Origin: a virus
Direction: 5' to 3' (one strand)
DNA length: 25,289 nt
IMG/VR virus record: IMGVR_UViG_3300017969_000129
Location: 1-25,289 of that record
Made by a program: the position numbers and the translations under genes. The notes under the pieces were generated by a model that saw only the letters and a program-made list of their open reading frames with translations, ran no database searches and was not told the DNA's origin. Shown here one piece after another: positions 4,909 through 22,537 of the stretch. How positions within the stretch are numbered: position 1 is the first letter of the stretch; each line of letters opens with the position of its first letter.

Positions 4909-5259
4909 TTATCTTGTAACTGATGGTGTTACAATTGCCCTTCCCTCTAAAACTCTTTCAATAACTGTAGTTTCTGTATCTGAGTCATATTTAGAAATTT
5001 CTAAATCATACACATATCTTCCATGTTTAAGTGCATCAGTCTGCTCATTTGTGAGTGACATAGTCACTATACCATATTCATCAACAATGTTAATATAAAA
5101 ATCGGTTGTGTTGTCACTATCCGACGTGTAAGTTTTTTTCAATTTTGCGGCGGCAGAATAACCTGATAAATCTTTTATAGATCCATCACCTTCAACAAGA
5201 TGAACCTCTACTGAAACATCAGATCCTTTATCAATTGTAATATCTTCGTACTCGGCCAT
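4909..5259 (-). CDS. Small beta-sandwich structural protein, BppU-N-like, 116 aa
   Basis: The sequence reads as a single immunoglobulin-like sandwich. An N-terminal DITIDKGSDVSVEVHLVEGDG precedes DLSGYSAAAKLKK, and a C-terminal half carries GRYVYDLEIS, VIERVLEGRAIVTPSVTR. This pattern (a DLSGYS-A loop, then YDL and an EG-x-x-x-V-x-P ending) resembles N-terminal domains of phage baseplate upper proteins (BppU-like) and small virion proteins in marine T4-like phages. That is a family resemblance by eye, not a search result. It is the first gene after a perfect late promoter, with the start 22 bases from the box and an AGAGA ribosome-binding site. A role as a fibre adaptor is plausible. Confidence 0.75.
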   Translation of the reverse strand: MAEYEDITIDKGSDVSVEVHLVEGDGSIKDLSGYSAAAKLKKTYTSDSDNTTDFYINIVDEYGIVTMSLTNEQTDALKHGRYVYDLEISKYDSDTETTVIERVLEGRAIVTPSVTR

Positions 5260-5291: not shown

Positions 5292-6206
5292 TCACGTTTT
5301 AGAAATTTTCAAATAATATGTATTAATAACGGTTGATGAACCATCTGGATGTTCCTGTGCTCGATAGTCATATTCATCAACAAAAAGAGTTCTATATATA
5401 GAACTGTCTAATTTTGAATCAAGCATAGCAGTACCTCTATTTAAACCATTAGTGTAAGAATATCTTAGTTGCCATCCAGGTTCCTGTGATACCGAATAAT
5501 TTATTGCATTTGTTAAGTAAGTGTCAAAATCTTCTAAAGGGTATTGTCTCACACCACCATTACTTAAAACAGACATTGGTGTTATAATATCAATTGGAGC
5601 ACCATCAATCACATGTAAATAATAACTTTGAACAATTTCTGGTTGATCTAGCGTATCTGGAATGGCATCAGCAGTATACAAAGCAGCGTTAGATCTAGTA
5701 TCTGTAAAAATTGGATTAGAATCTACGAGTGTAGCACCTGGAACTGATGTGGAAGTTGAAATAAAATGTGTTCCAGCCTGTGAAGGAGTAAGATCTCCTG
5801 AAGTTAATAAATCAATAGCTGGATGAATAATCGTATCGTAATAATCTTCTTCTCGCATAGCTCTTATGCTATATCCATCTACATATGCTAATGGAGGAAG
5901 AAGTTTAGTTGGTTTTGCAGTTGTTGTTACTGTTTCATCTATTTTATTAAATGTAATAGAAGTTGTTGTTACGTCTGCAGTTTCTGCTTCAGTAGGAAAT
6001 CTATCTGTTCTTGTCGAATATACTCCAGCTAAAACTCTAGTGTCAAATATAGATCCTAAAGATCCACCACTGTTTACTCTAGATAAAGAAACAGCTGGGT
6101 TTAAACTAAAGTTATATACTGCTCTTAAAATCAAGTTGTCAATTTCAGACTGTGACATTGTCTGAAATCCAAACGGCCCTGGTTTAAGAGGTTTTCTAAC
6201 AGTCAT
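5292..6206 (-). CDS. Virion structural protein, 304 aa, paralogue of the 308-aa protein at 14750-15676
   Basis: The protein starts MTVRKPLK and ends INTYYLKISKT; the paralogue starts MAVRRPLK and ends INEIYYLKINKV. Further shared blocks are an early MS-x-x-EI segment, NP-x-VSLS/VTLS followed by a GG-x-LG-x-I motif, RAM/KSMN before a D-[FY]-x-D-T-[IF]-I-x-PA-[IV]-D-x-LTS block, SYYLH, RYSY with a downstream NRGTAMLD, and VDEYDYR. A function cannot be read directly. Placement among fibre genes and expression from the late promoter at 7203-7210 indicate a baseplate or fibre-linked structural subunit. A good AGGAG ribosome-binding site precedes the ATG at 6206, 16 bases after the 316-residue gene. 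An 18-bp perfect DNA palindrome lies inside it at 5388-5405. Confidence 0.8.
   Translation of the reverse strand: MTVRKPLKPGPFGFQTMSQSEIDNLILRAVYNFSLNPAVSLSRVNSGGSLGSIFDTRVLAGVYSTRTDRFPTEAETADVTTTSITFNKIDETVTTTAKPTKLLPPLAYVDGYSIRAMREEDYYDTIIHPAIDLLTSGDLTPSQAGTHFISTSTSVPGATLVDSNPIFTDTRSNAALYTADAIPDTLDQPEIVQSYYLHVIDGAPIDIITPMSVLSNGGVRQYPLEDFDTYLTNAINYSVSQEPGWQLRYSYTNGLNRGTAMLDSKLDSSIYRTLFVDEYDYRAQEHPDGSSTVINTYYLKISKT
5388..5405. repeat. 18-bp perfect palindrome inside the 304-aa gene
   Basis: AGTTCTATA is followed directly by its inverse complement TATAGAACT with no loop. It is within coding sequence (Ser-Ile-Tyr-Arg-Thr region). It could be a protein-binding site or chance in AT-rich DNA. Confidence 0.35.
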
Positions 6207-7202: not shown

Positions 7203-7210
7203 TATTTATA
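7203..7210 (-). promoter_or_regulatory. T4-type late promoter box (TATAAATA)
   Basis: A perfect TATAAATA on the minus strand in the 71-base gap between the last cassette gene (ends 7245) and the 316-residue fibre start (7173). Transcription would start near 7196. No terminator hairpin is visible in this gap, so read-through from the cassette is likely. Confidence 0.85.
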
Positions 7211-7244: not shown

Positions 7245-7904
7245 TTATTTCCAGAATAATGATTCATGTGGCTTGTTTAGAGATGTAGTAAAATGTACTA
7301 ATTTAATGCTATCATTAAATTGATTATTAGTCATAATATTTGAATCAAATTTTGCTTTATATTGATTTGCTATAAAATCATTTTTTGATTCGGTGTTTGT
7401 CCATCTAGTTATCCATTTTTCAGGCACTAATTTTAACGTCAAATTTTGTTCTACATGTTCTTCTACAAAAAATTGTTCACCATTTACTGGTCCAATTGTC
7501 AATCCGCTTTTTATATAATGAGACATCCAATGTTTTGGATTTTTCATAAAAATATCATATATGTAATTACAGTCTTTAGGATAATATTTTTGAAATCCTC
7601 CATTTATTTTCCAATTAGGATAATTATGATTCCACCATTGAGGGATTCCTAAAAATTCACCTCTTTTAATTGGAAAATCAAATAATTTTTTGTAATCACC
7701 AATCAATAAAACATCTATATCTAATACAACAATAGGCTCATCAGTATTGAGAGCCATGCATTGCATTTTATTCCACTGTAAAGCTATAGATTTTTCATAT
7801 GATTCTCGAATCCATACGACTTCATAATCTTTTAACTTTTCATTAATATAATCTTCATATTCTGGCCCGTACTTGTTTCCAATGCGTAGGCAATATATTT
7901 TCAT
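7245..7904 (-). CDS. Glycosyltransferase-like protein, GT-A type with DxD, 219 aa
   Basis: A small, probably cytoplasmic nucleotide-sugar transferase. The N-terminal strand (MKIYCLRIGNKYG) leads to the metal/sugar-nucleotide motif DID at residues 62-64, inside PIVVLDIDVLLIGD. A KINGGF segment lies in the middle. The C-terminus carries KLVHFTTSLNKPH, resembling the HF...KPW closing motif of GT8-like enzymes. There is no signal peptide or membrane segment. It is the last gene of the cassette, three bases after the 296-residue gene. Donor and acceptor sugars cannot be deduced. GT-A fold is well supported by pattern; catalytic activity is inferred. Confidence 0.72.
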   Translation of the reverse strand: MKIYCLRIGNKYGPEYEDYINEKLKDYEVVWIRESYEKSIALQWNKMQCMALNTDEPIVVLDIDVLLIGDYKKLFDFPIKRGEFLGIPQWWNHNYPNWKINGGFQKYYPKDCNYIYDIFMKNPKHWMSHYIKSGLTIGPVNGEQFFVEEHVEQNLTLKLVPEKWITRWTNTESKNDFIANQYKAKFDSNIMTNNQFNDSIKLVHFTTSLNKPHESLFWK

Positions 7905-7907
7905 GAT

Positions 7908-8798
7908 TTAAAAAGTTCTTCCTTCATATTTAACTTCTGGCCAAATAAGTTCAAATTTCTTATTGATGGCATGAATCATTTTATGGCTTGGATCTATTGC
8001 GTCATCTGGAAGTCTACCGTGCCATTCATCAGTAAGTGATTCATAGTTAATATTTTTAGATTTCACTAAGAAACTAAACATGGTTTCATTATCAAAAGCA
8101 AATCTACTAAAAATTGCTTCTGGGAACATTGTGATTTCCTGTTCTTGTAAAGCTTTTAATTTATAAATTAATGTTTCAAATTCACCATTCCAATCCATAG
8201 ATTGTATAGCTTCAGACCCACCAATAACTGTGCCGGTATTAATCACATCATTTTCAGGATGATATCCTTCTTCTAATAAAAGAGCATAACAATTCCAATA
8301 TTTTACGGCTGGATTTCTATCACAACTATTGTATTTTGTTAAGTCTGTTTTCTTCCCCCACTCGGCTAACTCATTATTATTTTTTGCATATAATTTATTC
8401 ATATCAAGAACTTCAAAAATATCTTCATTTGTTCTTGGTATGACATCAATATCCATATAAAATACAGCGTCATACTCATATGATAATTTTTGAAGTAAAT
8501 GATTTTTATAGTAATTCACAATATGATACATTGGAAGATTTTCATACACTTCTTTGCAGTAAACATAATAATCTATAAATTCTTTATCAAAAACATATAG
8601 TTTGTAATCTGCATCGATCTCATCGGCATATGCTTTTTGTGTCCACATTAAATGATTTTTAAATGCTGCAAATTTATCTTTGGTTTCTTCAGCACGTCCA
8701 ACTCTCCAGGGATTTTTTCCTGAATGCCTTGAATATCCGGCTTCATTTAACAATGCTTCTGGAATATCAATGTAAATAGAAAATATAATCTTTTTCAT
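7908..8798 (-). CDS. Glycosyltransferase-like protein, GT-A type with DxD, 296 aa
   Basis: The DxD motif is DID at residues 116-118 within AVFYMDIDVIPR, preceded by a strand and helix pattern (NYYKNHLLQKL) typical of GT-A enzymes. A later NTGTVIGGS segment fits the acceptor-side NTG/NxG motif seen in many such enzymes, and the C-terminal MIHAINKK supplies a candidate metal-binding histidine. It is longer than and distinct from the KWG-type group in this cassette (proteins at 9430, 10208 and 13550). No membrane anchor is visible. It is spaced three bases from both neighbours, so it is surely co-transcribed. Its sugar specificity is unknown. Confidence 0.72.
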   Translation of the reverse strand: MKKIIFSIYIDIPEALLNEAGYSRHSGKNPWRVGRAEETKDKFAAFKNHLMWTQKAYADEIDADYKLYVFDKEFIDYYVYCKEVYENLPMYHIVNYYKNHLLQKLSYEYDAVFYMDIDVIPRTNEDIFEVLDMNKLYAKNNNELAEWGKKTDLTKYNSCDRNPAVKYWNCYALLLEEGYHPENDVINTGTVIGGSEAIQSMDWNGEFETLIYKLKALQEQEITMFPEAIFSRFAFDNETMFSFLVKSKNINYESLTDEWHGRLPDDAIDPSHKMIHAINKKFELIWPEVKYEGRTF

Positions 8799-8801
8799 AA
8801 C

Positions 8802-9443
8802 TTAACCTTTTTTTCCTATTACAAAAAATTGTTTATAGTTTCTAAAACCTAAATCATCTTCAAAATCAAAAACCTGTTCATGTTTAAAGTGTACTTCAGT
8901 AATTCCAGATTGCTTTATTAAATCTCTAGTAGATTCTACTTTATTAATATGACCTCTTTTTGTTAGATTATTTCCACTTAAAACTACATAAGAATTATTT
9001 GGTATAACTTCTTTCATTGGAAAAGAATGTTCACAACTCGTATTAATGTATACGTCAGCTGGGTGAAACATATCATTATCAAATGTAACATCCAAATTGT
9101 GATGGCTATAATTTATAGTAGAAGTTAAATCTTCATTTCTATAATACTTATTGATTCTCCAAGCTAATTTTTCGGTCACTGGACACATATCATATGTTCT
9201 TACTTTATGCGCACCTTTTTCAAAACACATTGGAACAGAATAAAATCCAACACCAGAATTTAAAATATTGACATCTTTTCCTATAAGGTCAATTTTATCA
9301 GCCCACCAATGTTGAATAATAAATTCAGTTTTACTCATTTGTTCAAATAAATTATCATAATAATTATCCCAATCACTAAGTTCTTTTGTTTCTCTTAGCA
9401 ATACGGTAAAACGATCTACATCTGATTTTTCAATTTGATACAT
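8802..9443 (-). CDS. Class I methyltransferase-like protein with INTSCE motif, 213 aa
   Basis: A Rossmann-type pattern is visible: NILNSGVGFYSV (residues about 59-70) as the SAM-binding glycine loop, VRTYDMCP with Asp85 as the likely ribose ligand, and PADVYINTSCEHSFPM (about 128-143) as the motif IV region. A C-terminal KRGHIN segment and a closing VIGKK complete the pattern shared with the 200-residue protein at 12960-13562. I recall this INTSCE group from marine phages, where it is usually annotated as a methyltransferase or hypothetical. Its start overlaps the end of the upstream glycosyltransferase by 14 bases. Methylation of a sugar or protein is inferred, not shown. Confidence 0.65.
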   Translation of the reverse strand: MYQIEKSDVDRFTVLLRETKELSDWDNYYDNLFEQMSKTEFIIQHWWADKIDLIGKDVNILNSGVGFYSVPMCFEKGAHKVRTYDMCPVTEKLAWRINKYYRNEDLTSTINYSHHNLDVTFDNDMFHPADVYINTSCEHSFPMKEVIPNNSYVVLSGNNLTKRGHINKVESTRDLIKQSGITEVHFKHEQVFDFEDDLGFRNYKQFFVIGKKG

Positions 9444-10185
9444 TTTGCTTCTTCTCTGATAAAGAAATGCCTTCTAGCATATTAATAATTCCACGTTTAT
9501 CATTTTCTTTTAATGCACGCTCAGTTGTAACAATACCTTCATCATAGTATTGAAAATGATTTCTTCTACTTTCTATACTATATGGCCCAAACTGATGAAA
9601 CATAAAAGTATCCATAGATGGGTATGTATAAAAGCACTTATCTAAATTACTATTTACAAAGTTATATATGGGTTTATTTTGACCTTGTTTCCAACGTAAA
9701 ACAGAACTATTAAATAAAGGACATCTTGTTATATGATATTGTCTTTTCCATTCATAGCCATTTTCATAATAAGGATGATCCCACCAATAATTCCAAACAA
9801 TATAAGGTTTATCGTCATTTAATTCTTCAAAAAAATACGCTAAATCACCTTCAATATTTGTATCTAAATCAAGATACAATATGGTGTCATTTTCATTGAA
9901 TTTTTTGTCTTCATTAAATAAAGTTATTTTTCTATAATGAGGAATTCCTCCAAAATCATCTCTATGATATCCGTTTTGAACCATATCATATCTTTCATTT
10001 GGATCCGTAGATGCTCTATAATGTTTTAGTTTAAATGCTTCCCATGTTTCATCAAATTCTGTAAAACACTCGAAATCAAAATCAACTGAACAGTTTTTCT
10101 TAACTTTTTTGTATAATTCATTTACATACCCATCATCGTATAGTGTACCCCATTTTGCACAAATGATTTTATTTTTGGATTTCAT
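9430..10185 (-). CDS. KWG-type glycosyltransferase-like protein with DxD, 251 aa
   Basis: I chose the ATG at 10185 because it places the family's KWG-x-x-Y motif near residue 11, as in the two related proteins here. A TTG at 10215 would add ten residues and overlap the upstream gene by 8 bases. The motif order is IICAKWGTLYDDGYV, NCSVDFDF, FGGIPHYRK, then TILYLDLDTNIEGDL with DLD at residues 106-108, then a CPLFNSSVLRWKQGQ segment. It belongs to the same family as the proteins at 10208-10903 and 13550-14299, and shares most with the latter. GT-A nucleotide-sugar transfer is the likely activity. It is followed, with a 14-base overlap, by an INTSCE methyltransferase-like gene, and the same pair occurs at 14299-12960. 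Confidence 0.75.
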   Translation of the reverse strand: MKSKNKIICAKWGTLYDDGYVNELYKKVKKNCSVDFDFECFTEFDETWEAFKLKHYRASTDPNERYDMVQNGYHRDDFGGIPHYRKITLFNEDKKFNENDTILYLDLDTNIEGDLAYFFEELNDDKPYIVWNYWWDHPYYENGYEWKRQYHITRCPLFNSSVLRWKQGQNKPIYNFVNSNLDKCFYTYPSMDTFMFHQFGPYSIESRRNHFQYYDEGIVTTERALKENDKRGIINMLEGISLSEKKQNVSN

Positions 10186-10207
10186 ACCAAGTGTCTTTCT
10201 TATATAA

Positions 10208-10903
10208 CTAAACAATTACTTCATCCTTTAAACCAATTGGTTCACCAGCTAAATTTTGAATTAAAGCATTTGTGTTTTTATAATACCAATCTACAGCTTC
10301 AACTGGTAAATAGTTAAAGTAATCTTTTACACCAAATCTATACCAAACATACGCATCTACTCTACGATATGTAAAAAATACTTGATCAGGCTTTTTTTCT
10401 ATTAAATCAGTAATTGGTTTTATTTGGCCTTTTTTCCAAACAAGAACTGACGTATTAATAGGAGTAATATTTTGATTTTTATAATCCTGAATTAATTTCC
10501 ATTTTTCCATATCATAATCGTACTGAACCCACGGCTTATCAAAATTTAACTCTGTAAAATATTTTAAATCACCGTTAATAATCATGTCAATATCTAAGTA
10601 CATAAAAACATCATCATCATCAAATTTTACATCTTGTGTCCAAGGATAGATTTTTTTATATAATGGTAAACCACCTAAATCATAATTCCAATAGCCATTT
10701 ACTAATTTTGGACCTTGAACAACTTCAGGCTTACCTGTTCCTCTAAAATATTTTTTACTATATTTGTCCCATCCTGTTTCATAATCTCTCAAAACAGTTA
10801 AGTTCCAATCTACAGTCGTATGTTTTCCAATACTTTCTTTTAGAGTATCAATGTACTTTTCATCATACATATCTCCCCATTTATGAACAATAATTTGTAA
10901 CAT
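10208..10903 (-). CDS. KWG-type glycosyltransferase-like protein with DxD, 231 aa
   Basis: The order of motifs matches its two paralogues in the cassette: IIVHKWGDMYDEKYI at the N-terminus, a TVDWN segment, LGGLPLYKK, then VFMYLDIDMIINGDL with DID at residues 104-106, and NTSVLVWKKGQIKP. No signal peptide or membrane helix is seen, so action in the infected cell's cytoplasm is expected. It starts one base after the stop of the 185-residue methyltransferase. It is the most divergent of the three KWG proteins; the donor sugar cannot be predicted. Confidence 0.75.
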   Translation of the reverse strand: MLQIIVHKWGDMYDEKYIDTLKESIGKHTTVDWNLTVLRDYETGWDKYSKKYFRGTGKPEVVQGPKLVNGYWNYDLGGLPLYKKIYPWTQDVKFDDDDVFMYLDIDMIINGDLKYFTELNFDKPWVQYDYDMEKWKLIQDYKNQNITPINTSVLVWKKGQIKPITDLIEKKPDQVFFTYRRVDAYVWYRFGVKDYFNYLPVEAVDWYYKNTNALIQNLAGEPIGLKDEVIV

Positions 10904-10904
10904 A

Positions 10905-11462
10905 TCACCACTTCACAATGTAATAATTTTCATTTAGTTTTTCTATAAGAGGACTAAAACCTTGCAATAGCATAATCAACTCATCCATTGTATATGTATG
11001 ATATTTATCACTAATTCCATCTTTATAATTCTCATCATAAAACACAAAAAAGGCGTGTTTAGCATCCATTTTTATGTAATGATCTAGTAGCTTTGATAGC
11101 CCAATATAATTCGGTGTTCCAAATAAGCTAACTAATATATCACACTTTTCATTAATGTACATATTGCAATCAGCTTGTTTAAAAGTATATTCGGGGAATT
11201 TTTGCTTAGCGTTTTCTAACATTCCTTCAGATATATCATATCCAATAAATGTTTTTGGATCTGGTTTTCCTAAAATGTCAATGTCTTGCCCAGAACCAAC
11301 ACCAAGAGATACAATCTTGCCAACCTCACCATTTTTCATCCAAAATTTATGAGCGTCATACTCATCTTTCATATAATGATTATTTTCCCATCCGCCATGA
11401 ACATATTTCTGTTCGTACCATTCAGCAGCTGCATTATATTTTTCTCTTAATAATTCACTCAT
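10905..11462 (-). CDS. SAM-dependent class I methyltransferase, 185 aa
   Basis: Classical methyltransferase motifs are in order. IVSLGVGSGQDI (residues about 50-61) is motif I, TFIGYDISEGMLENAK with Asp76 is the ribose-binding strand end, FKQADCN (about 94-100) is the adenine-contact region, and DILVSLFGTPNY (about 108-119) is motif IV. The length is short for the family, with a compact C-terminus. The substrate is not evident; the glycosyltransferase neighbours suggest a sugar hydroxyl or a small metabolite. The 74-base gap before this gene is the only sizeable one within the cassette, so it may begin a second transcription unit. Confidence 0.85.
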   Translation of the reverse strand: MSELLREKYNAAAEWYEQKYVHGGWENNHYMKDEYDAHKFWMKNGEVGKIVSLGVGSGQDIDILGKPDPKTFIGYDISEGMLENAKQKFPEYTFKQADCNMYINEKCDILVSLFGTPNYIGLSKLLDHYIKMDAKHAFFVFYDENYKDGISDKYHTYTMDELIMLLQGFSPLIEKLNENYYIVKW

Positions 11463-11499
11463 AGCGTCACTTTCTTGTTTACAAAAATCATAAATGTGG

Positions 11500-11511
11500 T
11501 ATAATATTATA
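11500..11511. promoter_or_regulatory. 12-bp palindrome with TATAAT core in the cassette's only real gap
   Basis: TATAATATTATA is a perfect palindrome and offers a sigma-70-like -10 hexamer on either strand. It lies 38 bases before the methyltransferase start at 11462. I see no convincing -35 element at 16-18 bases. It could be an internal host-type or middle promoter, an operator half-site pair, or chance in AT-rich DNA. Confidence 0.3.
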
Positions 11512-11536
11512 GTTATCTATAATGGAAGCTGGAATA

Positions 11537-12232
11537 CTACCAACCAATCGCACCATGCTTCATAACAGCATCTTTTGTCATTTCATCTAAAGTAGTGCCT
11601 TTTTCATTATCTAATTGATCATACGCATATTCTATTTCTCTACAGCCCATACAATCTCCACACGGTTCTGTAGCATGAGTATTGCATGATATAGTGTAAT
11701 CATAAATCCAATCAAACTTGTTTCTTCTACCTAAATCTACTACATGATATTTTTCTAAATGTTCAAAAGGATTTTTTAAAAAATTATCATTTGTTAACCA
11801 AGGGCGTTTTGACATGCCTTTTTGTGTTGGATCCCACCTAGGAAACCATTGTGGATGTGGTGGTAAAATATTTCCACAATAAAGTTCTTCACAATCAGTA
11901 GTGTCTCTTATTTCTTGAAAAGCTAAACATAAGCGAGGGTAATGCGCGCTCATTGGCCAATCCCAACGAGTTTTACCAACAATTTCTAATTCTAAATTTA
12001 CTTCTAACTTTTTTAAAATTTCATCAATAAGAGGCTTACTCGGATCATAGCTTGTTTGAACATTAAAAATTCTAATATCAATGTCGTTTTTAAAATTGTC
12101 CCAAAGCAATTTAAAAATTGTAGTGCTGTCTACGCCTGAAGACATTAATACACCGATTTTTTTCTTTGGATTTAAGTTTATAATTCTTTCGTCCCATTCT
12201 GGCCCAGTTATAAATTTCATAACGTTATCCAT
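11537..12232 (-). CDS. PP-loop ATPase with QueC-like cysteine cluster, 231 aa
   Basis: The PP-loop is SSGVDS at residues 31-36, following a hydrophobic strand (KKIGVL), the AMP/PPi-binding signature of the N-type ATP pyrophosphatase family. Near the C-terminus four cysteines (183, 191, 194, 197; C-x7-C-x2-C-x2-C) sit in a CGDCMGCRE context. This closely resembles the zinc site of QueC, 7-cyano-7-deazaguanine synthase, and the length matches QueC. No folE, queD or queE partner is visible here, and the neighbours are sugar- and methyl-transfer genes. A related amidating or thiolating PP-loop enzyme acting on a glycan precursor is therefore an equal alternative. The start overlaps the upstream sulfotransferase-like gene by 16 bases; Met5 is a possible alternative start. 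Confidence 0.72.
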   Translation of the reverse strand: MDNVMKFITGPEWDERIINLNPKKKIGVLMSSGVDSTTIFKLLWDNFKNDIDIRIFNVQTSYDPSKPLIDEILKKLEVNLELEIVGKTRWDWPMSAHYPRLCLAFQEIRDTTDCEELYCGNILPPHPQWFPRWDPTQKGMSKRPWLTNDNFLKNPFEHLEKYHVVDLGRRNKFDWIYDYTISCNTHATEPCGDCMGCREIEYAYDQLDNEKGTTLDEMTKDAVMKHGAIGW

Positions 12233-12963
12233 CCTCCATTATTTACAACCTCGGAATTTAATTTATCTATGACAAAATCTGGATCTTCAAAAAATCGAAG
12301 TTTTTCCATAGGATCTTCCCATATTAATGTTTCCTTAGTATTTTCACTATCTACAAAAATTTCATCATAAGAAGTTTTTAATACCTCATCTGCAAAAGAT
12401 TCAACATTGTTAATATTATTTTTAAAGCTTTTTATTGTTTTAAGCATTTCGTTAATATAAAAAACAGCTTGTTTATTTGATATTTTAGGCATGTTTTCAA
12501 AATGATTTTTAACACTTTCTCTTGTAGATTCGCCTTCTGAAATATTCCACCAAGAAATTCCAGATTTTATAATTTCATTTTTATTTTTTGAAGTAATATT
12601 TTCATAATGGTTTTTAGCTAAAGGTAAAGCCAATGATGTATAATGAGAAAGATAATCTTTTCTAGGATATAAAATTATAAGTTGACAATTTTTCCAAAAA
12701 TTAAAATTATGCTTTTTTTGCCATTCCATATAATGATGATCAAGCATAACTTTGGCTAAAACAAATTTTTCTTTTGATTGAGAATTTTCTATAAATTCTT
12801 TTTGAAAATCATCAGGCCAAAATACAAATTCACCATAATTTTTATCAAAACTACTAAAATTTTCAAAATGTTTTTTAATAGATTGATTTAAGTATGTAGA
12901 AGCTGTTCTAGGCACCGTTGCTATAAAAGTATTTTTTAATTTTAGACTTGATATATCAATCAT
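12217..12963 (-). CDS. Sulfotransferase-like P-loop protein, 248 aa
   Basis: An N-terminal strand and loop, FIATVPRTASTYLNQSI (residues about 13-29), resembles the 5'-phosphosulfate-binding loop of PAPS-dependent sulfotransferases (PRSGSTW-type). A second segment, LIILYPRKDYLSHY (about 95-108), resembles the 3'-phosphate motif with Ser106 in the expected place. However, the arginine usually two residues before the proline is replaced by leucine; Arg101 next to it might compensate. The length suits a small sulfotransferase. The gene overlaps its upstream neighbour by four bases (ATGA) and its downstream neighbour by 16. The likely role is transfer of sulfate to a sugar or protein, but activity is uncertain because of the missing arginine. 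Codon use and base composition are very AT-rich. Confidence 0.55.
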   Translation of the reverse strand: MIDISSLKLKNTFIATVPRTASTYLNQSIKKHFENFSSFDKNYGEFVFWPDDFQKEFIENSQSKEKFVLAKVMLDHHYMEWQKKHNFNFWKNCQLIILYPRKDYLSHYTSLALPLAKNHYENITSKNKNEIIKSGISWWNISEGESTRESVKNHFENMPKISNKQAVFYINEMLKTIKSFKNNINNVESFADEVLKTSYDEIFVDSENTKETLIWEDPMEKLRFFEDPDFVIDKLNSEVVNNGGWITL

Positions 12964-13562
12964 ATTTTTTTTCCAATAACCATGTAAGTATTTTTATGAT
13001 TTATATCAGCTGTGCCGCTGTAAACAACTTCCATTGGAGGAAGTGTTTTTATAAAATCATATATTGTGTCTTGAATATTTATATTGCCTCTTTTCTTTTC
13101 ATTTGTTCCTTGAAAAGCCATTAGAGTTCCAGGTTTATAAACATCTGCACAAAATTTCATATCATACATAAGTTCACATGATGTGTTTATTAATAGATCT
13201 ACTTCGTGTCTTATCCATTCTTTATCTAAAACAACATCTAATACTATTTGTTCTACGTTTTTAAAATCTTGTAAAAGTTTCCAATTAATACTTTGAACTG
13301 CAGGATCATAATCATATAATATTATATCACTATATTTTTTAAATAAAAATGATTCATAAAAAAAGAATCCAGATGCGTAAAAATTTACACTTTTTACGTC
13401 TTTATCAAATTTGGACAGCTCATTATATAACCATATATTTTTTTGTAAGACTTCTTTTTTCAAACAAGAATAAAAATTATCTTTATGCCAGGGGTATTCT
13501 TTATCAATTGAATAAAGTGCATCTATTAATGGCTGAGCTGGAAAATCGTTTAAGTTAAACAT
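12960..13562 (-). CDS. Methyltransferase-like protein with INTSCE motif, 200 aa
   Basis: It is a paralogue of the 213-residue protein at 8802-9443. The shared blocks are VDLLINTSCELMYDMK (residues about 121-136), a KKRGNIN segment (about 146-152) and a final MVIGKK. The SAM-loop equivalent (SVNFYASGFFFYES, about 58-71) is degenerate, with only one glycine, although an acidic LYDYDP follows in the right place. It may be a divergent methyltransferase or a non-catalytic relative. Its start overlaps the upstream KWG glycosyltransferase by 13 bases, the same arrangement as the second pair in the cassette. Confidence 0.6.
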   Translation of the reverse strand: MFNLNDFPAQPLIDALYSIDKEYPWHKDNFYSCLKKEVLQKNIWLYNELSKFDKDVKSVNFYASGFFFYESFLFKKYSDIILYDYDPAVQSINWKLLQDFKNVEQIVLDVVLDKEWIRHEVDLLINTSCELMYDMKFCADVYKPGTLMAFQGTNEKKRGNINIQDTIYDFIKTLPPMEVVYSGTADINHKNTYMVIGKKI

Positions 13563-14299
13563 ATCTTATTTTTTTCATCCATATTTAATCCAGCTAACGT
13601 GTGAATAATTGTATTATCATTAAAAGAATTTTTATCAGATGCTACTATTCCTCTATCAAATGTATTAAAAAAATTTCTATTATATTCGTCATACGCATGT
13701 GGACCAAATCTATGAAATAACCAATTGTCGTTTATCCCATATTGAAAAAAATTAGCGTAAGAGTTTTTCATCATTTGATTAAATATTCTTCTACACTGAC
13801 CGGGTTTCCATAATAATACTGAACTATTATAATATGGGCAACTTCTTAAATTATAAAGCCTATTCCATTTCATATTTTCGTTAAACTGCCAACTTCTTGC
13901 AATCCAAGGTTTGTTTAATTCTAAATCAAAGAAATATGCTAAATCTTTTTTAATTATTGTATCTAAATCTAAATACAAGATGGTGTCATCTTCTGCGCAA
14001 TATTCAATATCTTTTAAAAACATTATATATTTTCTAAAATGTGCAAAACCGCCTGCATCTTCTCTAATATATTCTTGAAGTGGATTATCAGTTATTGAAG
14101 ATTCGGGATCCTGTGTTCCTCTAAATACATCTTTTTGTATTTTTTCTAGTTCTTTAAACGCGGCAGAAATATGGACATGATCCATTGTAATAAAATCAAA
14201 ATCTACTGAACAATTATTTTTTACTTGATCATATAGAGCTTCTACATGTTCATTGGTGTAACGAGTACCCCATTTTAAATAAACAATTTTATTTGCCAT
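13550..14299 (-). CDS. KWG-type glycosyltransferase-like protein with DxD, 249 aa
   Basis: This is the first gene of the cassette in transcription order, four bases from the preceding 146-residue gene's stop. Motifs in order are IVYLKWGTRYTNEHV, NCSVDFDF, AGGFAHFRK, TILYLDLDTIIKKDL with DLD at residues 111-113, and CPYYNSSVLLWKPGQ. The NCSVDFDF, ILYLDLDT and NSSVL blocks are nearly identical to those of the protein at 9430-10185, so the two look like duplicates. A GT-A type, metal-dependent sugar transfer in the cytoplasm is the likely activity. Nothing in the sequence identifies donor or acceptor. Confidence 0.75.
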   Translation of the reverse strand: MANKIVYLKWGTRYTNEHVEALYDQVKNNCSVDFDFITMDHVHISAAFKELEKIQKDVFRGTQDPESSITDNPLQEYIREDAGGFAHFRKYIMFLKDIEYCAEDDTILYLDLDTIIKKDLAYFFDLELNKPWIARSWQFNENMKWNRLYNLRSCPYYNSSVLLWKPGQCRRIFNQMMKNSYANFFQYGINDNWLFHRFGPHAYDEYNRNFFNTFDRGIVASDKNSFNDNTIIHTLAGLNMDEKNKICLT

Positions 14300-14302
14300 G
14301 AT

Positions 14303-14743
14303 TTATTTCAATGTTAGTGCCAAAATATGAATTAATTCTAATGCATCATTACTTTTTTTAATTTTATTGATTTTTGTTTTTGAAAGAGAAAGAATATTTT
14401 CAAGCCTAAACATGTCTGCTTTTATTTTAAAAATAAAATCTTCATCAAACCTTTTTTCTAAAAAATTAAAGCAGTCAAACGGCAATCCATTTGATTCTTT
14501 TTCTATCACTTTAATTTGAGGTTTTTCTTTTTTCTTTGAAGCTTCTCTTATTTTTTTATAAGTTCTCATTTCTATATCTTCTAAACTATATTCTTCCAAT
14601 AAGTCTAGAAAATCCTGTGAACTATAATCTACTTCAAGAGCATAAGAAATTATATCATCGTTTTCTTTATATAAAACTTCAATAATTGTATTTTGTCTAT
14701 CAAAAAATTTTACGTCAATAATTTTGTCGCTAAAAATAGCCAT
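14303..14743 (-). CDS. Conserved hypothetical T4-like phage protein, 146 aa
   Basis: The N-terminal half (KIIDVKFFDRQNTIIEVLYKE, then ALEVDYSSQDFLDLLEEYSLEDIE) resembles short hypothetical proteins I recall next to tail genes in cyanophages, in which a beta hairpin is followed by an acidic helix. The middle (about residues 61-85) is lysine-rich (REASKKKEKPQIKVIEKE) and the C-terminal part is helical. There is no catalytic motif, signal peptide or membrane segment. It sits six bases after the 308-residue structural gene and just before the cassette. A small structural or assembly role is plausible but not shown. Confidence 0.65.
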   Translation of the reverse strand: MAIFSDKIIDVKFFDRQNTIIEVLYKENDDIISYALEVDYSSQDFLDLLEEYSLEDIEMRTYKKIREASKKKEKPQIKVIEKESNGLPFDCFNFLEKRFDEDFIFKIKADMFRLENILSLSKTKINKIKKSNDALELIHILALTLK

Positions 14744-14749
14744 AATAAT

Positions 14750-15676
14750 TTACACTTTGTTAATTTTTAAATAATAAATCTCGTTTATAATTGGAGAGCC
14801 ACTTGGCACCCTTTGGTAGCCAAATTCATAATCATAATCTGTTACTACATACTCACCCTCACGAATAATTGAATTATCTGAATCCAATATAGTATCTATC
14901 ATTGCTGTACCGCGGTTATTTCCACTATCATATGAATATCTAATTTTACAATCATCAGAATGAACAGCGGCCCACTGCATATAGGTTTGTAGAAGAGCAT
15001 CATTATCACTGTCATTCATTTGTCTAATGTTATAATCGCTATCAATTAATAAGAAATTTGGTGATGATACATTAGTTTCTCTTTTTAATTTATGTAAGTA
15101 ATAACTATTAACAGTTATAAATTGATCTTGTTCCTCACTCAAAGGCCCGGAAGAAAACGCATCAGCATCGGCTAAAGTATCAACAAAAACTGGAATAGAT
15201 GAAACTAAATCTGCATTTTCTACTAAATTAGTAGAAGCAATAAAGTATGTTCCGCCTTGAGATTTAGTAAGGCTTGAAGATGTTAAAGTATCAACTGCTG
15301 GTGAAATAAATGTATCAACAAAATCAGAATCATTCATTGATTTGATGTCACCACTATCTGTATAGTAAACTGGATACGCTCTATTATCAGTATCTAAATA
15401 CTGTGTTACAGCGCTGTCTACAGATTGGTTGATTCTTGAAAAATTAATAGTATTAAATGAAAGCTCAGTAACACCACCAGTTTCAACATTAGGGCCTGCT
15501 ATTGTTCTTTTATCTGAAATATTTCCAAGATTACCTCCTGAACCAACTACAGATAAAGTAACAGAAGGATTTTCTGCAAACAAAGATATCATTCGAGATT
15601 GGATTTCTCCAATCTCTTCATCGCTCATTTCTTGTAAATCTGAGCCATTTATCTTTAGTGGTCTGCGAACTGCCAT
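14750..15676 (-). CDS. Virion structural protein, 308 aa, paralogue of the 304-aa protein at 5292-6206
   Basis: Shared blocks with the 304-residue protein run along the entire length: MAVRRPLK at the start, GSGGNLGNI near residue 46, FISPAVDTLTSSSLTKSQGG, VNSYYLHK, RYSYDSGNNRGTAMID, and a final EIYYLKINK. This colinear match shows a full-length gene duplication rather than a shared domain. No enzyme motif is visible. Location between the DUF4815-type protein and fibre genes points to a baseplate- or fibre-linked subunit. It starts five bases after the 85-residue gene. The Asp-Ser dipeptide is frequent here, as in the other virion proteins of the window. Confidence 0.8.
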   Translation of the reverse strand: MAVRRPLKINGSDLQEMSDEEIGEIQSRMISLFAENPSVTLSVVGSGGNLGNISDKRTIAGPNVETGGVTELSFNTINFSRINQSVDSAVTQYLDTDNRAYPVYYTDSGDIKSMNDSDFVDTFISPAVDTLTSSSLTKSQGGTYFIASTNLVENADLVSSIPVFVDTLADADAFSSGPLSEEQDQFITVNSYYLHKLKRETNVSSPNFLLIDSDYNIRQMNDSDNDALLQTYMQWAAVHSDDCKIRYSYDSGNNRGTAMIDTILDSDNSIIREGEYVVTDYDYEFGYQRVPSGSPIINEIYYLKINKV

Positions 15677-15939: not shown

Positions 15940-16145
15940 TAGATTTCCATCTTCTTAATAATTACTTCCAACAAGTTCTTTATTTCACCCATATCATTTT
16001 TTAGTTTTTTAATTTCTTCTTGTTGAGTTTTTCTACTTTCTTTATTTTTTCTTAACTGTTCAAAATTAGTATTAACATTAAGAATAGCGCCTGTTTTTTT
16101 ATCTTTAACTAAATCTGAATGGCCATCAATACTAATATATCTCAT
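15939..16145 (-). CDS. Small coiled-coil protein, 68 aa
   Basis: The N-terminal MRYISIDGHSDLVKDKKTGAI resembles small cyanophage proteins with a GHSDLV-K/R-D signature. After ILNVNTNFEQL the protein becomes a charged helix with heptad-like hydrophobics (residues about 33-66: IKKLKNDMGEIKNLLEVI), a probable coiled coil for oligomerisation. Both ends use one-base TAATG overlaps, with the DUF4815-type gene upstream and the 85-residue gene downstream, so synthesis is probably tied to the giant structural protein. A connector or assembly role is inferred. Confidence 0.75.
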   Translation of the reverse strand: MRYISIDGHSDLVKDKKTGAILNVNTNFEQLRKNKESRKTQQEEIKKLKNDMGEIKNLLEVIIKKMEI

Positions 16146-19100
16146 TACACACCTAAAGCAATAATACGTAAATCTTTAATAGTTGGTACTTTTGAAGAAT
16201 TTGAAGATTTAAACACAATTTTAATTTGGAATGTATTAAATGCGTTCAAGCCTCCACCTTGTCCACCTATCAAATATCTATAATCTCTAAAAATATTTCT
16301 ATTTTCATCGCTTGGCACATTGCTTTCTTTTTCTGCTAACACCCAAGATACGTCGTTAATATTTTGATCATCAGATAGAGTTTTATAGTAAACATCAAAA
16401 GACGATGTAGAAGGTCTATTAGCACCAATTAAAACTTTTAAGCCAACAGCATCATTAACTAAAGTTACTGGCTTAGTAATGTGTTTGGATAGGTGCGAAC
16501 CTTGATTAGGATTAGTTTCGTCAATATAATCAATTGGAACATTAAAGCCAGTGGCCGATGTTTCTGCTTGGTTATCAATTCTATTGTTAATTAGTGCAAG
16601 AGAAGCTCTCTGTAAGTCCAAAACTGGTGAAACATATGAATTTTCAGTTGTCATATCAACATACATCTTAGCAGTAGAAGTACCTAAAGCTGTCTCTTTT
16701 GCAGCATTAGCAATAACTTTTGGTCTTGGGAAATAATTTGCTTCCTTATTGCTCAAAGTAGTTAAAATAGTATCTTCTAAATATGGTGTTTCCGCTCCTG
16801 CTAAAGATTTACCAGTATGAAACTTACCATTCATCAATAAACTTGTTTTATTAGGAGTTATAGTCTGAATATATGGATATAACACATCAATTGTTGCGTT
16901 TTCAGTTGCTAAAACATCGTTTCCACCGCCGCTTGCAGTTTCTGTAGCATTCGCGCTGTGATTAAATGCATATCCAAATCCATCAACTTTAGTAATTGTT
17001 TTGGTTCCGTTTAATGCTGTAGCTAAAATTCCTCCAACTGTAGCATCAATACCGGAAATTGTAACTGTATCACCAACAACAAACCCGTGATCTTTGTGTG
17101 CTATTTTTATTTCTTGTGATCCAGAAGTTGTAGTCACAGGATTTGCATCTAATAGTTTACTAGGTAAAGTGTTATTTCTTAAATAAGCTTGTCCATCTGT
17201 AGTAGTATCAAAATCAGCTCTAAATAATTCAAACATTAAATCTTCATCTTGTGCTGGTGTCCAGGTTGAAGCATTTTGAGATTTAAAGAATGAACCTAAG
17301 AAAGGCTGTTTAGTAATTCTTTTCTCTGTTGAATTTAAGATAAACTCGCCCATTTTAGAAATAAACACATTATAGTCAGTGCTATCTGATAAAATGACCA
17401 ATGCATATTCAGTATTAGGATTTAAGAAAATTGGCTCATCAAATTCAAAAGTAGTTGCAACTGAAGCATCAGTTGATGTGCTTACTTGACTTGGATTTAA
17501 TATCTTATTTGAGCCAGGTATAACTTCATCTGAAGATGGCGCACCATTAACCATAGGTCTTAACTGTACCCAAACCGGCATTGTGTCAGATTTTGATTGG
17601 AAATATAAATTTAACTTTGTTACAAATAAACCATCTTCTTCATGAACATAAAAAGACTGGGCTAAAGGATCGGTTCTTCTTCTTGTAGGAACTCTAGGCG
17701 GTCTAGGTGGTTGCGGTCTACGAGTTGAAACAATAGTTCTTTGTCTAGTTTCAATTGTACCTTCAGCGGTATAAACTGCAGTAGCTACGGTTGTAGAATC
17801 GTCGGGATTATAAGCTGTTACATCTAATAAAGTAAACTCTCTTGCGCCTGTTCTAAATCTAATTGAATCAGTGTTAGGTATAAAGAAAGAACCTGAAACT
17901 CTTCCAGCAGCATCTGCGATAAGAGTTGTTGATCCACTTGGATGTTCTGTAGCTCTATTTTGAGTATCGCCAAATTCAGTTCTAGATGCATTTACTCTCT
18001 GGAAAGCTTCACTTCTACACCAACTAGAAACATCTACTTCATCAAAGAAAGGAATAACTCTTGTGTTTGGTCTTAAACCATATGCATCAAAGTATACTTT
18101 TCTAGAACGCATAAATGGAACAATTGCAACGTCAATGATTCTATCATCTACAATTTGTCTAATTGTTTCATTTGTTACAACACGAGAAACTGTTGCGCCA
18201 GTATTTCTATCAACGCCGTTCCAATTCCATTCAATAGCTTCTCTTAGTAATTCTTGATTTGTATCTAGCCTTGTGCCACCTTGAATTACTCTATCTGCTG
18301 CTCTACGGGTATCTCTCCATTCATCAGATGATGGAGATAATTCAACTGTTCCATTGAATTGAATCATAGCGAACGGATTAACATTTTCTGTCGTTGAAAC
18401 TTGATCTTGTAAAATATAAGATTCTTCTTCATATTTGACGTAAATATTATCGCCTTTTATAACAGTATTAGTAGATAAATCTGAGTCATAAACTAGACCT
18501 ACATTTTTCTCAACAAATGCTGGATTCAAAGTTTTCTTTTGAGGGTTAATTGAAGCTCTATATTCAACATTTCCTGTAAGAGAATGATAGTGATCTACAA
18601 AATTATCTACTAAGAAACCAGACTTAGTTCTATTATTTCCGGCTGAATCTAAAACTTCTAAGCTATTTGTATCTAATTCTAATAAAGTTAATGATGTAAC
18701 TTCTTCAAGTCTATCAACTCTTTTTTCAATTTTACCAATATCGGCCATTGTATAGCCTTTGGTTTCAATAAATTGATAGTTCATATCAGTTTCATCATCT
18801 GTATATGGATTCATTTTAACTCTGTAAAGCTCTAATGAATTTTCAGGAACATCTTTAAATTTTGGATCTAATGATGAAACGCCTTCTAGTACAGAAATTG
18901 TGCCTAACTCGTTTACAACAATTTTGTCATATCTGGGCAAGTAATAAGTCACATCGGCAGTAATTAAATCAGTTGTTTGAAGAAGTTCATTGACTCTAGC
19001 TGTAGAACCTGTAAATGTTCCAGCTGAATTAATAGTAGGTCTAAAGTCAAAATAATTTCTTAAATCAATTACTGTGCCATCTTTAAGAGTATGAGTAGGA

Positions 19101-21109
19101 ACATTTGCGTAAGATGTGTTGGCATAAGAGTTTACGTTAAAGAAATCACCAGACACACCATGTGTAAAGTGGTTTACTTTATAAGCCACGTTTCCAGCAA
19201 CACTTTGACCGGATTTAAGAACTAATCTACCAATTCCATAATATGCGTCTGTTTGACCACCGTCTAATGTAAATTTATGAGAAATGTCAGGGCCATTTGA
19301 TGAATCTTCTCTAATATATTCATAGTCATAAACATCAACAAGTCCTAAATCCACATATTGAATACCACTACCATCTGAATCAATTGTTTTAAGCGCTGTA
19401 GTTTCTTCTGGTGTTTTAGTTCTAAAGCTCGCTGAACCTTTATTAACATATGCCAAAAACTCTAACTGTGAGTTAGGTGTTGCATCTGTTACAGTAGCGG
19501 ATGTTGTGCCCGATCCAGTAATAGTTGGACTTATAATTTCTCCAGAAGAATCTACTGCAACAATCCAATCGTTGGTATTTGAAAATGTTTCTCCAAGAGA
19601 CGATAGAGATAAACCAACTTGACCGGCAGAATCAGTTGAAGCAATAAATTTTCTTTGCACTTGAAATGAGACATCATTAATATTTGAAGGTCTAACTTCT
19701 GGTAATTCAAACAGTAAAGAATTTTTATCTGGTTCATTAAGTACTGCAATTCCATTTTCAAGAACTAATGTAGCGTTATCTGTAGCAGATTTACCAATAG
19801 ATCTAATGTCTCTTATATAATATCCAGTAGACATTTCTATTTTGAATAGATAAATTTTATGTGTACCATCAGTATTTGCTTCAACAGCTCTAACTCTAGC
19901 TGTACCAATTGTTGTACCAGAATTAAAAGTAGCATTATCTTTTAAATCTAATTCATCATTAATGTTAAAATTGGGAATACCTAATAAATTTTCTACTGTT
20001 ACATAATTTCCGTACTCAACAGAAATAACTTCATTTTCAATTGTTAAAGTATCTCTAGCTCTATTTACGGCTATTGTAGATTGAATATCACGATGAGCTC
20101 TATAACCATTTACATATGCTGTTCCTTCACTAACTTTTAATTTTAGTAAAGTTGGATCAGTTTCATCTGAATCATAAGAAATTTTAAAGGGTTTTACTAA
20201 ATAGTTGCCTGATTCTTCTTTAGTTCTTAGTGCTAATAAATCATTAATCTTATTGTATTGGTCAAATCCAGTAGAAGCTTCAAGAACTTCAGAATTTCTA
20301 ATTTTTGCTAAATAAACAAATGTTTCATCTGAATCAATTAAGTCTTTAGTTGTAAGAACTAATTTAATTCTATAACGATCAGCACCAGGAGCAGTAGTGT
20401 TTGGAAGAGCACCTGAATTGTCATACAAAGATTCATCGTCATCTACTGTAACAATGTCTTGAACTACTTTAAAACCAACTTCAACTGTTACTGAGGGAGA
20501 ATACTTAGCTAAAATAATAGATTGTTGTTCAGCTTGGACAAAAAACCCATTTACAAAATAAAATCCTTGACCTACAGAAAATCTTACTGACTTACCTACT
20601 GCTGGATTTAAAGCTGTATTAGTTGTTTGTACTGTTAATACAGTACCAGTATTAATACCAACTAAATCTTCGCCCGGAGTTAATCTAATTGGAGCTGTGG
20701 ACGTTGTGCCATTTAATGTATTAGTATAAGAAACATATAAAGTGGCTGGATCAGTTAAAGTAGCAGCTTTCTTTTCAATAACTTTGACTCTTACACCAGA
20801 TGTTTGACCTAAGAATGTTTCTTCATCAATAGAATTGTCTGTTGGCAATGTGTACGCTGACGTGTCAAGTTTAACAAATTCGTATGAATCATTTAAAGAT
20901 AGTCCACCTGGAATTACAGTAGCACCCTCTTTAAAAATGTTTCTTCCGAATCTTTCAATTTGTTTTTGAATAATTGTTTGTAGTTGTGTTAATTCACGCG
21001 CTTGTAAAGCTTTACCTTTATTAAAAAGAATACGATGAAAGTTGTCGCTATCAGCGTAATCATCTCTATAACGAGTTTCAAAAATATTTTCAGTGTACGT
21101 AATTGTCAT
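16145..21109 (-). CDS. Giant virion structural protein, DUF4815 type, 1654 aa
   Basis: The N-terminus matches DUF4815: YADSDNFHRILFNKGKALQ, then ARELTQLQTIIQKQIERFG and a GATVIPGG turn, within residues 20-70. The middle is a long series of beta-rich segments. A proline/arginine-rich hinge (about 1130-1146) precedes TDPLAQSFYVHEEDGLFVTK, a signature I know from large cyanophage virion proteins. It is followed by a jelly-roll-like region (VWVQLRPMVNGAPSSDEV; EYALVILSDS) and a DHGFVVGDTVTISGI module near residue 1340. In marine T4-like phages this protein follows the wedge genes, where T4 has gp9/gp10; direct homology to those is not claimed. It probably links baseplate and fibres. Confidence 0.85.
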   Translation of the reverse strand: MTITYTENIFETRYRDDYADSDNFHRILFNKGKALQARELTQLQTIIQKQIERFGRNIFKEGATVIPGGLSLNDSYEFVKLDTSAYTLPTDNSIDEETFLGQTSGVRVKVIEKKAATLTDPATLYVSYTNTLNGTTSTAPIRLTPGEDLVGINTGTVLTVQTTNTALNPAVGKSVRFSVGQGFYFVNGFFVQAEQQSIILAKYSPSVTVEVGFKVVQDIVTVDDDESLYDNSGALPNTTAPGADRYRIKLVLTTKDLIDSDETFVYLAKIRNSEVLEASTGFDQYNKINDLLALRTKEESGNYLVKPFKISYDSDETDPTLLKLKVSEGTAYVNGYRAHRDIQSTIAVNRARDTLTIENEVISVEYGNYVTVENLLGIPNFNINDELDLKDNATFNSGTTIGTARVRAVEANTDGTHKIYLFKIEMSTGYYIRDIRSIGKSATDNATLVLENGIAVLNEPDKNSLLFELPEVRPSNINDVSFQVQRKFIASTDSAGQVGLSLSSLGETFSNTNDWIVAVDSSGEIISPTITGSGTTSATVTDATPNSQLEFLAYVNKGSASFRTKTPEETTALKTIDSDGSGIQYVDLGLVDVYDYEYIREDSSNGPDISHKFTLDGGQTDAYYGIGRLVLKSGQSVAGNVAYKVNHFTHGVSGDFFNVNSYANTSYANVPTHTLKDGTVIDLRNYFDFRPTINSAGTFTGSTARVNELLQTTDLITADVTYYLPRYDKIVVNELGTISVLEGVSSLDPKFKDVPENSLELYRVKMNPYTDDETDMNYQFIETKGYTMADIGKIEKRVDRLEEVTSLTLLELDTNSLEVLDSAGNNRTKSGFLVDNFVDHYHSLTGNVEYRASINPQKKTLNPAFVEKNVGLVYDSDLSTNTVIKGDNIYVKYEEESYILQDQVSTTENVNPFAMIQFNGTVELSPSSDEWRDTRRAADRVIQGGTRLDTNQELLREAIEWNWNGVDRNTGATVSRVVTNETIRQIVDDRIIDVAIVPFMRSRKVYFDAYGLRPNTRVIPFFDEVDVSSWCRSEAFQRVNASRTEFGDTQNRATEHPSGSTTLIADAAGRVSGSFFIPNTDSIRFRTGAREFTLLDVTAYNPDDSTTVATAVYTAEGTIETRQRTIVSTRRPQPPRPPRVPTRRRTDPLAQSFYVHEEDGLFVTKLNLYFQSKSDTMPVWVQLRPMVNGAPSSDEVIPGSNKILNPSQVSTSTDASVATTFEFDEPIFLNPNTEYALVILSDSTDYNVFISKMGEFILNSTEKRITKQPFLGSFFKSQNASTWTPAQDEDLMFELFRADFDTTTDGQAYLRNNTLPSKLLDANPVTTTSGSQEIKIAHKDHGFVVGDTVTISGIDATVGGILATALNGTKTITKVDGFGYAFNHSANATETASGGGNDVLATENATIDVLYPYIQTITPNKTSLLMNGKFHTGKSLAGAETPYLEDTILTTLSNKEANYFPRPKVIANAAKETALGTSTAKMYVDMTTENSYVSPVLDLQRASLALINNRIDNQAETSATGFNVPIDYIDETNPNQGSHLSKHITKPVTLVNDAVGLKVLIGANRPSTSSFDVYYKTLSDDQNINDVSWVLAEKESNVPSDENRNIFRDYRYLIGGQGGGLNAFNTFQIKIVFKSSNSSKVPTIKDLRIIALGV

Positions 21110-22529: not shown

Positions 22530-22537
22530 TATTTATA
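22530..22537 (-). promoter_or_regulatory. T4-type late promoter box (TATAAATA)
   Basis: A perfect TATAAATA on the minus strand in the 60-base gap between the gp7-like stop (22542) and the gp8 start (22481). Transcription would start near 22523. It is the last such box before the accessory cassette, so it probably drives gp8 through the cassette, about 15 kb. Confidence 0.85.

Follow-up and report, generated by a model that had tools for sequence, protein, structure and literature searches.

In pelagimyophages, the region just downstream of VrlC is a variable island that encodes tail fibres and GT8 glycosyltransferases; as the host recognition cluster, it has been described for pelagimyophages as well as cyanomyophages (PMC7029224). 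A methylated viral glycan is known from chloroviruses, in which the virus itself encodes the transferases and the methyltransferase domain that assemble an O-methylated glycan on one of its virion proteins (PMC4691112). Here, we analyzed the virus record IMGVR_UViG_3300017969_000129, a 25.3-kb stretch of DNA (25,289 nucleotides, termed the window throughout) that stems from a T4-like marine myovirus and contains ten packed open reading frames at exactly 7245-14299, between baseplate and fibre genes. With a confidence that stays slightly short of even, we interpret these genes as an accessory cassette for glycan synthesis within the host recognition cluster, whose late, soluble enzymes would build a methylated glycan, perhaps on the phage's own distal tail. 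New are the modular architecture of glycosyltransferase (GT) and methyltransferase (MT) genes within a pelagimyophage-type host recognition cluster and a mobile pair of a QueC-like and a methyltransferase gene without the canonical deazaguanine-binding motif. The chlorovirus system differs in that it belongs to a eukaryotic algal virus, concerns a capsid protein and yields a glycan of solved structure, whereas that of the window is predicted from genes.

With regard to its position, the locus resembles the published clusters: it lies directly downstream of VrlC, is variable and contains fibre as well as GT8-like genes. The main genes of the window are all located on the minus strand and, counted from the gp6 end, follow the order gp6, gp53-like wedge, gp8, VrlC-like gene, small structural genes, cassette and fibre-like genes. 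The nearest isolate gp8 is that of phage C48C1 (36% identity), followed by other Kyanoviridae including pelagiphages and cyanophages. At the far end, where the cluster is delimited by the neck gene gp14, the window stops inside a fibre gene; in the related contig 3300037961_005010 (G001), neck-type genes seem, on inspection, to begin at about 68 kb. On the other hand, the window cassette differs from the cluster in PMC7029224, a paper in which the word "methyltransferase" appears nowhere, by its GT-MT modules, which are ordered, conserved and encoded on the late strand, by paired paralogues and by a module formed by PPL, a QueC-like PP-loop enzyme, and the methyltransferase MT2. An isolate with a related locus is Pelagibacter phage Mosig EXVC030M (MT647606), where homologues of GT1, GT2, MT1/3 and a GT3-5-like gene adjoin those of VrlC, s85, s304/s308 and u146 (GT2: 33% identity, E 2e-47). 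The Mosig cassette differs in being inverted, in bearing nitroreductase, carbamoyltransferase, radical SAM and aminotransferase annotations and in having no match to PPL or MT2. The view taken in an earlier sequence-only reading, that this gene combination is unusual in a tail operon, is thus only partly right, as similar islands have been published (PMC7029224) and the corresponding locus of Mosig holds the triplet MT1-GT2-GT1.

Open reading frames and flanks agree with that reading in the ten genes, the interval they fill and the strand they share with the tail genes. Neighbouring genes overlap by 4-16 bases or stand 1-3 bases apart, in accord with the tight packing it reported, and the single exception, between PPL and MT2, had been overlooked (Table 1). 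The G+C content of the cassette genes is 24.5-33% (26-30% in most of them) vs. 32-38% in most of the flanking structural genes. The structural proteins s304 and s308, which flank the cassette on either side, share 38% identity (E 2e-54).

Five cassette genes, GT1, GT2 and GT3-GT5, are predicted to encode GT-A/GT8-like transferases. The PF01501 (GT8) scores of the window proteins (14.8-21.7 bits) lie under the Pfam cut-off of 24.3 bits, and a GT2 relative in contig L056 clears it with 27.5 bits. GT3, GT4 and GT5 are paralogues (GT5 is 40% identical to GT3 and 29% to GT4); within their family, 12 of 24 members match the GT8 profile at E<=0.01, the DxD motif (D111/D113) is invariant in the 24 members and the family profile matches the GT8 structure PDB 5gvv at 2e-5. 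The five DxD glycosyltransferase-like proteins recognized earlier are borne out as GT8-like, GT3-GT5 at the family level, with single-protein Pfam scores below cut-off. The same applies to the three methyltransferase-like proteins, although by different routes: MT2 is assigned to class-I S-adenosylmethionine (SAM) methyltransferases by profile, MT1 by its AlphaFold2 model, the best Foldseek match of which falls among SAM methyltransferases, and MT3, as a class-I SAM methyltransferase-like protein, by homology to MT1. Neither MT1 nor MT3 matched any profile. The proposed sulfotransferase (ST), and with it the suggestion of a sulfated glycan, found no further support: apart from a motif in one phage, ST gave no match to the sulfotransferase families PF00685, PF13469 and PF17784 nor any credible family match, it is missing from the cassettes of relatives, its sole match among viral contigs is a near-identical twin contig, and matches in isolate phages were at chance level. 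A true Sulfotransfer_4 gene (1.8e-22) was observed elsewhere in the relative G003, within a cluster of transferase-like genes (L100, 1733-2251).

Table 1. Coordinates of cassette genes and neighbouring features in the window, with the evidence for each.
Feature	Position	Strand	Evidence or remark
GT1, GT8-like glycosyltransferase, core gene	7245..7904	-	PHROG1962 glycosyltransferase 6e-4; conserved
GT2, GT8-like glycosyltransferase, core gene	7908..8798	-	Pfam GT8 6e-4 (below cut-off); conserved in isolate Mosig
MT1, class-I SAM methyltransferase (predicted), core gene	8802..9443	-	AlphaFold2 pLDDT (predicted local distance difference test) 89; Foldseek E 2.7e-9
GT3, GT8-like glycosyltransferase, DLDT motif, core gene	9430..10215	-	Paralogy; conserved in relatives
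GT4, GT8-like glycosyltransferase, DIDM motif	10208..10903	-	Paralogue of GT3/GT5
MT2, SAM methyltransferase (predicted)	10905..11462	-	Methyltransf_25 3.5e-6 (over cut-off); directly downstream of PPL
74-base gap between PPL and MT2	11463..11536	-	Sole real gap within the cassette
PPL, QueC-like PP-loop ATP pyrophosphatase	11537..12232	-	Pfam QueC 2e-6 (over cut-off); PHROG1550 1e-9; fold; motifs
ST, putative sulfotransferase	12217..12963	-	"PRTASTYL" motif only (5'-PSB-like, by eye)
MT3, class-I SAM methyltransferase-like	12960..13562	-	Paralogue of MT1 (30% identity, E 1e-12)
GT5, GT8-like glycosyltransferase, DLDT motif	13550..14299	-	Pfam GT8 E 1.7e-4 (below cut-off); paralogy; DxD
TATAAATA	7203..7210	-	Follows the cassette directly and precedes fibre gene s316; similar placement in relatives
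TATAAATA	22530..22537	-	Precedes gp8; the unit ending with the cassette presumably starts here
s304, structural protein	5292..6206	-	Paralogue of s308
u146, small protein	14303..14743	-	Directly precedes the cassette; syntenic in relatives
s308, structural protein	14750..15676	-	Paralogue of s304 beyond the opposite cassette end
VrlC-like baseplate protein	16145-21109	-	PHROG358; Mosig VrlC match 7e-229; upstream edge of host recognition cluster
gp6	23507-25288	-	

A survey of related phage genomes, which the sequence-only reading had proposed, found the cassette in 12 additional contigs, where it occupies this locus in the same gene order and with gain and loss of modules. GT3-MT1-GT2-GT1 form a core that is constant wherever a contig reaches it, while GT5-MT3, PPL-MT2 and GT4 vary; GT5-MT3 and GT3-MT1 constitute two parallel GT-MT pairs of paralogues. 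In the contig pair L044/L049, omega amounts to 0.03-0.23 for cassette genes, MT3 evolving fastest (0.23), and to 0.11 for gp8, values that indicate purifying selection. As the gene order recurs in independent contigs and omega is low in the pair tested, the cassette is not a chance assembly and, judged by selection, is real, conserved and functional. Five metagenomic relatives including G020 carry relatives of MT1-GT2 at the same locus in the stretches read, mostly or wholly inverted, while MT1 and GT2 were not detected in ten others, each represented by contig fragments. In a distant phage (L060, 6651-12737), after the fibre genes come those for transferases, for a QueC-like PP-loop enzyme, for a methyltransferase-like protein and for a carbamoyltransferase. 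Glycan genes have thus been acquired at this locus time and again, in keeping with what is published on pelagimyophages (PMC7029224). Among isolate phages, PPL, GT4 and GT5 (tblastn) as well as cassette DNA (blastn) gave no match, and Mosig was the only match for GT2.

The PPL-MT2 module also occurs in other contexts, i.e., beside PhyH, GT3 and MT1 (L055, L056 and L083) and, in another phage, within a sugar/nucleotide block (L075). These and other PPL proteins are 72-81% identical to that of the window regardless of backbone, be it with a gp8 identity of 55-87% or with no shared backbone at all. In addition, the backbone groups the window with G001 and c881 (3300030395_000881) with good support, whereas the PPL-MT2 tree, in which the placement of the window itself is poorly settled, lacks this grouping. 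Both observations suggest that the pair has been exchanged between phages. A scan of bacterial genomes with PPL returned a single contig, L083, binned to an uncultured Lewinella. Its layout is that of phage contig L056 (radical SAM-GT-MT-GT2(double)-PPL-MT2-PhyH-like-GT-GT3-MT1), and L083 is probably a mis-binned phage contig.

The PP-loop ATPase noticed earlier was confirmed by QueC profile, PP-loop and predicted fold, which brings the assignable cassette genes to nine of ten. With the QueC superfamily, which comprises QueC, Cap9, QatC and WbpG (PMC13329287, PMC13279940), PPL has the PP-loop and fold in common, and with QueC, Cap9 and QatC also the four-cysteine zinc site: it retains SSGVDS and, as in canonical QueC, C-x7-C-x2-C-x2-C. 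The structural model (pLDDT 78.6) matched QueC (3bl5, E 5e-6) and then Cap9 (9nto, E 2.5e-5). On the other hand, the Y-x-D-C and P-x-R-N motifs (YPDC/VPxRN) that define canonical QueC (PMC13329287) are present in none of 12 PPL sequences, and the score against the canonical equivalog TIGR00364 is 22.2 bits at a cut-off of 150.3. PPL furthermore differs from the superfamily by its phage glycan context and its constant methyltransferase partner: wherever a complete PPL of the same subfamily was found, MT2 is the adjacent downstream gene. On these sequence features, PPL is placed in a QueC-like branch that is coupled to a methyltransferase and lies outside the motif descriptions of the known branches.

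Its relatives raise two further explanations, both of which we consider very unlikely. According to the first, phage DNA or tRNA is the substrate of the QueC-like enzyme, the methyltransferases and the transferases, a notion that draws on the production of 7-deazaguanines by QueC relatives and on the G007 locus, where thymidylate-synthase-like, dCMP-deaminase-like and AGT-like genes share a block with PPL-MT2. It is opposed by the missing motifs and by the core, which contains no DNA-glucosyltransferase family, AGT in G001 being encoded elsewhere. Modification of DNA of the preQ0 type was rejected, as neither TGT/DpdA (PF01702) nor QueD (PF01242) was found in the contigs searched, in which positive controls gave a signal. 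In G001 (L096, 8703-12898, and neighbours), an AGT-like DNA glucosyltransferase (3e-32) lies beside an epimerase, a UDP-glucose dehydrogenase and a C5-cytosine DNA methylase-family protein, and the DNA of this phage is probably glycosylated, as far as its genes suggest. The second explanation, for which the chances appear equally slim, is that PPL acts like Cap9 or QatC, its target being the N-terminus of a phage protein, to which it would attach a small carboxylate, and not a sugar to be amidated. Cap9 as second-best structural match and the retained PP-loop and cysteines agree with it, but the Y/D pair by which QueC and Cap9 hold the deazaguanine was not found in PPL sequences, its constant partner is a methyltransferase and no CD-NTase or QatB homologue was seen among the listed neighbours (MT2 and transferases), although no search was aimed at them.

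The time of expression was approached via the late-promoter-like motif TATAAATA. The window contains five copies, a count that by itself is not above chance, in contrast to their placement: four of the five fall into intergenic DNA, which makes up 1.5% of the sequence (P 2e-7), and they precede gp8, s316, the gene at 4909-5259 and the fibre gene at 3-1805, respectively. The copies upstream of gp8 and just past the cassette recur in relatives. The simplest reading of this arrangement would be a late unit that begins with gp8 and includes the cassette, and a fresh late start thereafter. Enzyme classes, strand and late promoters hence support what had been proposed before, a late-made cassette for a methylated glycan. 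Between two fibre genes (1806-1870), a GC-rich hairpin followed by a T-run is found next to TATAAATA, possibly a terminator plus late promoter.

In the mechanism we propose, soluble cytosolic enzymes, made late, would add sugars singly from nucleotide sugars. Each of the duplicated pairs GT5-MT3 and GT3-MT1 would add one residue and then methylate this same residue, while PPL-MT2 might introduce a further ATP-dependent change, of the amide or amidine type, that is subsequently methylated. The acceptor would be the phage's own distal tail (baseplate/fibre) proteins, a step less certain than the enzymatic ones, and progeny would leave with methylated glycans on their adhesion apparatus. With regard to the acceptor, distal tail proteins are slightly favoured over the host envelope. 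The cassette enzymes have no transmembrane-like segment (maximum KD19 1.33), a pI (isoelectric point) of 5.0-7.0 and no strongly basic C-terminal tail, and the locus stays beside fibre genes even where it is inverted.

The distal tail proteins of the window are furthermore rich in Asp-Ser (73 vs. 33 expected, rank 1 of 156 dipeptides). In G001, where the Asp-Ser-rich distal baseplate/fibre genes extend over about 29-67 kb (L091-L096), the value is 1.80 in distal tail proteins vs. 0.70-1.11 in its other proteins; ten reference phages range from 0.33 to 1.24. The excess resides at the protein level and is not a codon or GANTC effect, and its sites turn over between relatives. It resembles the preference of Bacteroidota O-glycosylation for D-S/T motifs (PMC12871550), a system that is, however, periplasmic and lipid-linked, whereas the phage side consists of a statistical excess that is not strictly tied to the presence of the cassette. 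Five cassette-bearing relatives reach 1.42-3.73 vs. 1.16-1.70 in ten without a detectable cassette (P 0.04, uncorrected for kinship and with relatives selected for DS repeats). Because these ten share the excess, it is not proof of modification; Asp-Ser as a glycosylation sequon marking the acceptor was dropped and is left as a clade trait. We regard it as improbable that distal tail proteins are glycosylated at Asp-Ser by a motif-directed cytosolic O-glycosylation, in which soluble phage enzymes would attach a modular methylated glycan and PPL and its methyltransferase a swappable terminal group.

Several points weigh against decoration of the distal tail. No virion of this phage group has so far been observed to carry a glycan, the relatives without detectable cassette are likewise Asp-Ser-rich, including 5-8 sites in gp8, and linkage to fibres at the same locus would be equally expected if the cassette altered the receptor. 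Mosig and five further relatives encode most or all of the cassette on the opposite strand, so that joint transcription with the tail genes is no general rule. Finally, such islands have been read in print as serving host O-chain modification (PMC7029224). In line with this published inference for the GT8-rich clusters of pelagimyophages, the cassette could instead remodel the host envelope. At the inner leaflet, GT8-like enzymes and methyltransferases would extend or cap the core or the O-chain of the lipopolysaccharide (LPS), which would keep progeny from being caught on debris and competitors from adsorbing. We hold this explanation to be possible, if on balance doubtful. GT8 includes LPS galactosyltransferases, the GT3-5 family profile weakly matches LgtC (1g9r), and fibre linkage suits a pairing of receptor and adhesin. 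Relatives also carry sugar-nucleotide genes, namely for an epimerase, UDP-glucose dehydrogenase, a DAHP/KDO8P-synthase-family protein and a CTP transferase, but those of G001 adjoin the AGT-like gene and may serve DNA. The cassette moreover lacks a lipid carrier transferase, flippase, polymerase or ligase, its enzymes are soluble as outlined above, and in the clade of the window the genes are part of a late structural unit, which is late for superinfection exclusion.

The fibre-island glycosyltransferases of abundant marine T4-like phages have so far been read, from gene content, as altering the host surface. A defined core, swappable modules and the isolate Mosig with its reduced cassette render virion and host-surface targets separable by mass spectrometry, and PPL adds a QueC-like branch that is tied to a methyltransferase, unlike the motif descriptions of known branches. 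The probable function of the cassette in these phages is to cover either the tail fibres of the phage itself or the surface of the host with methylated sugar chains.

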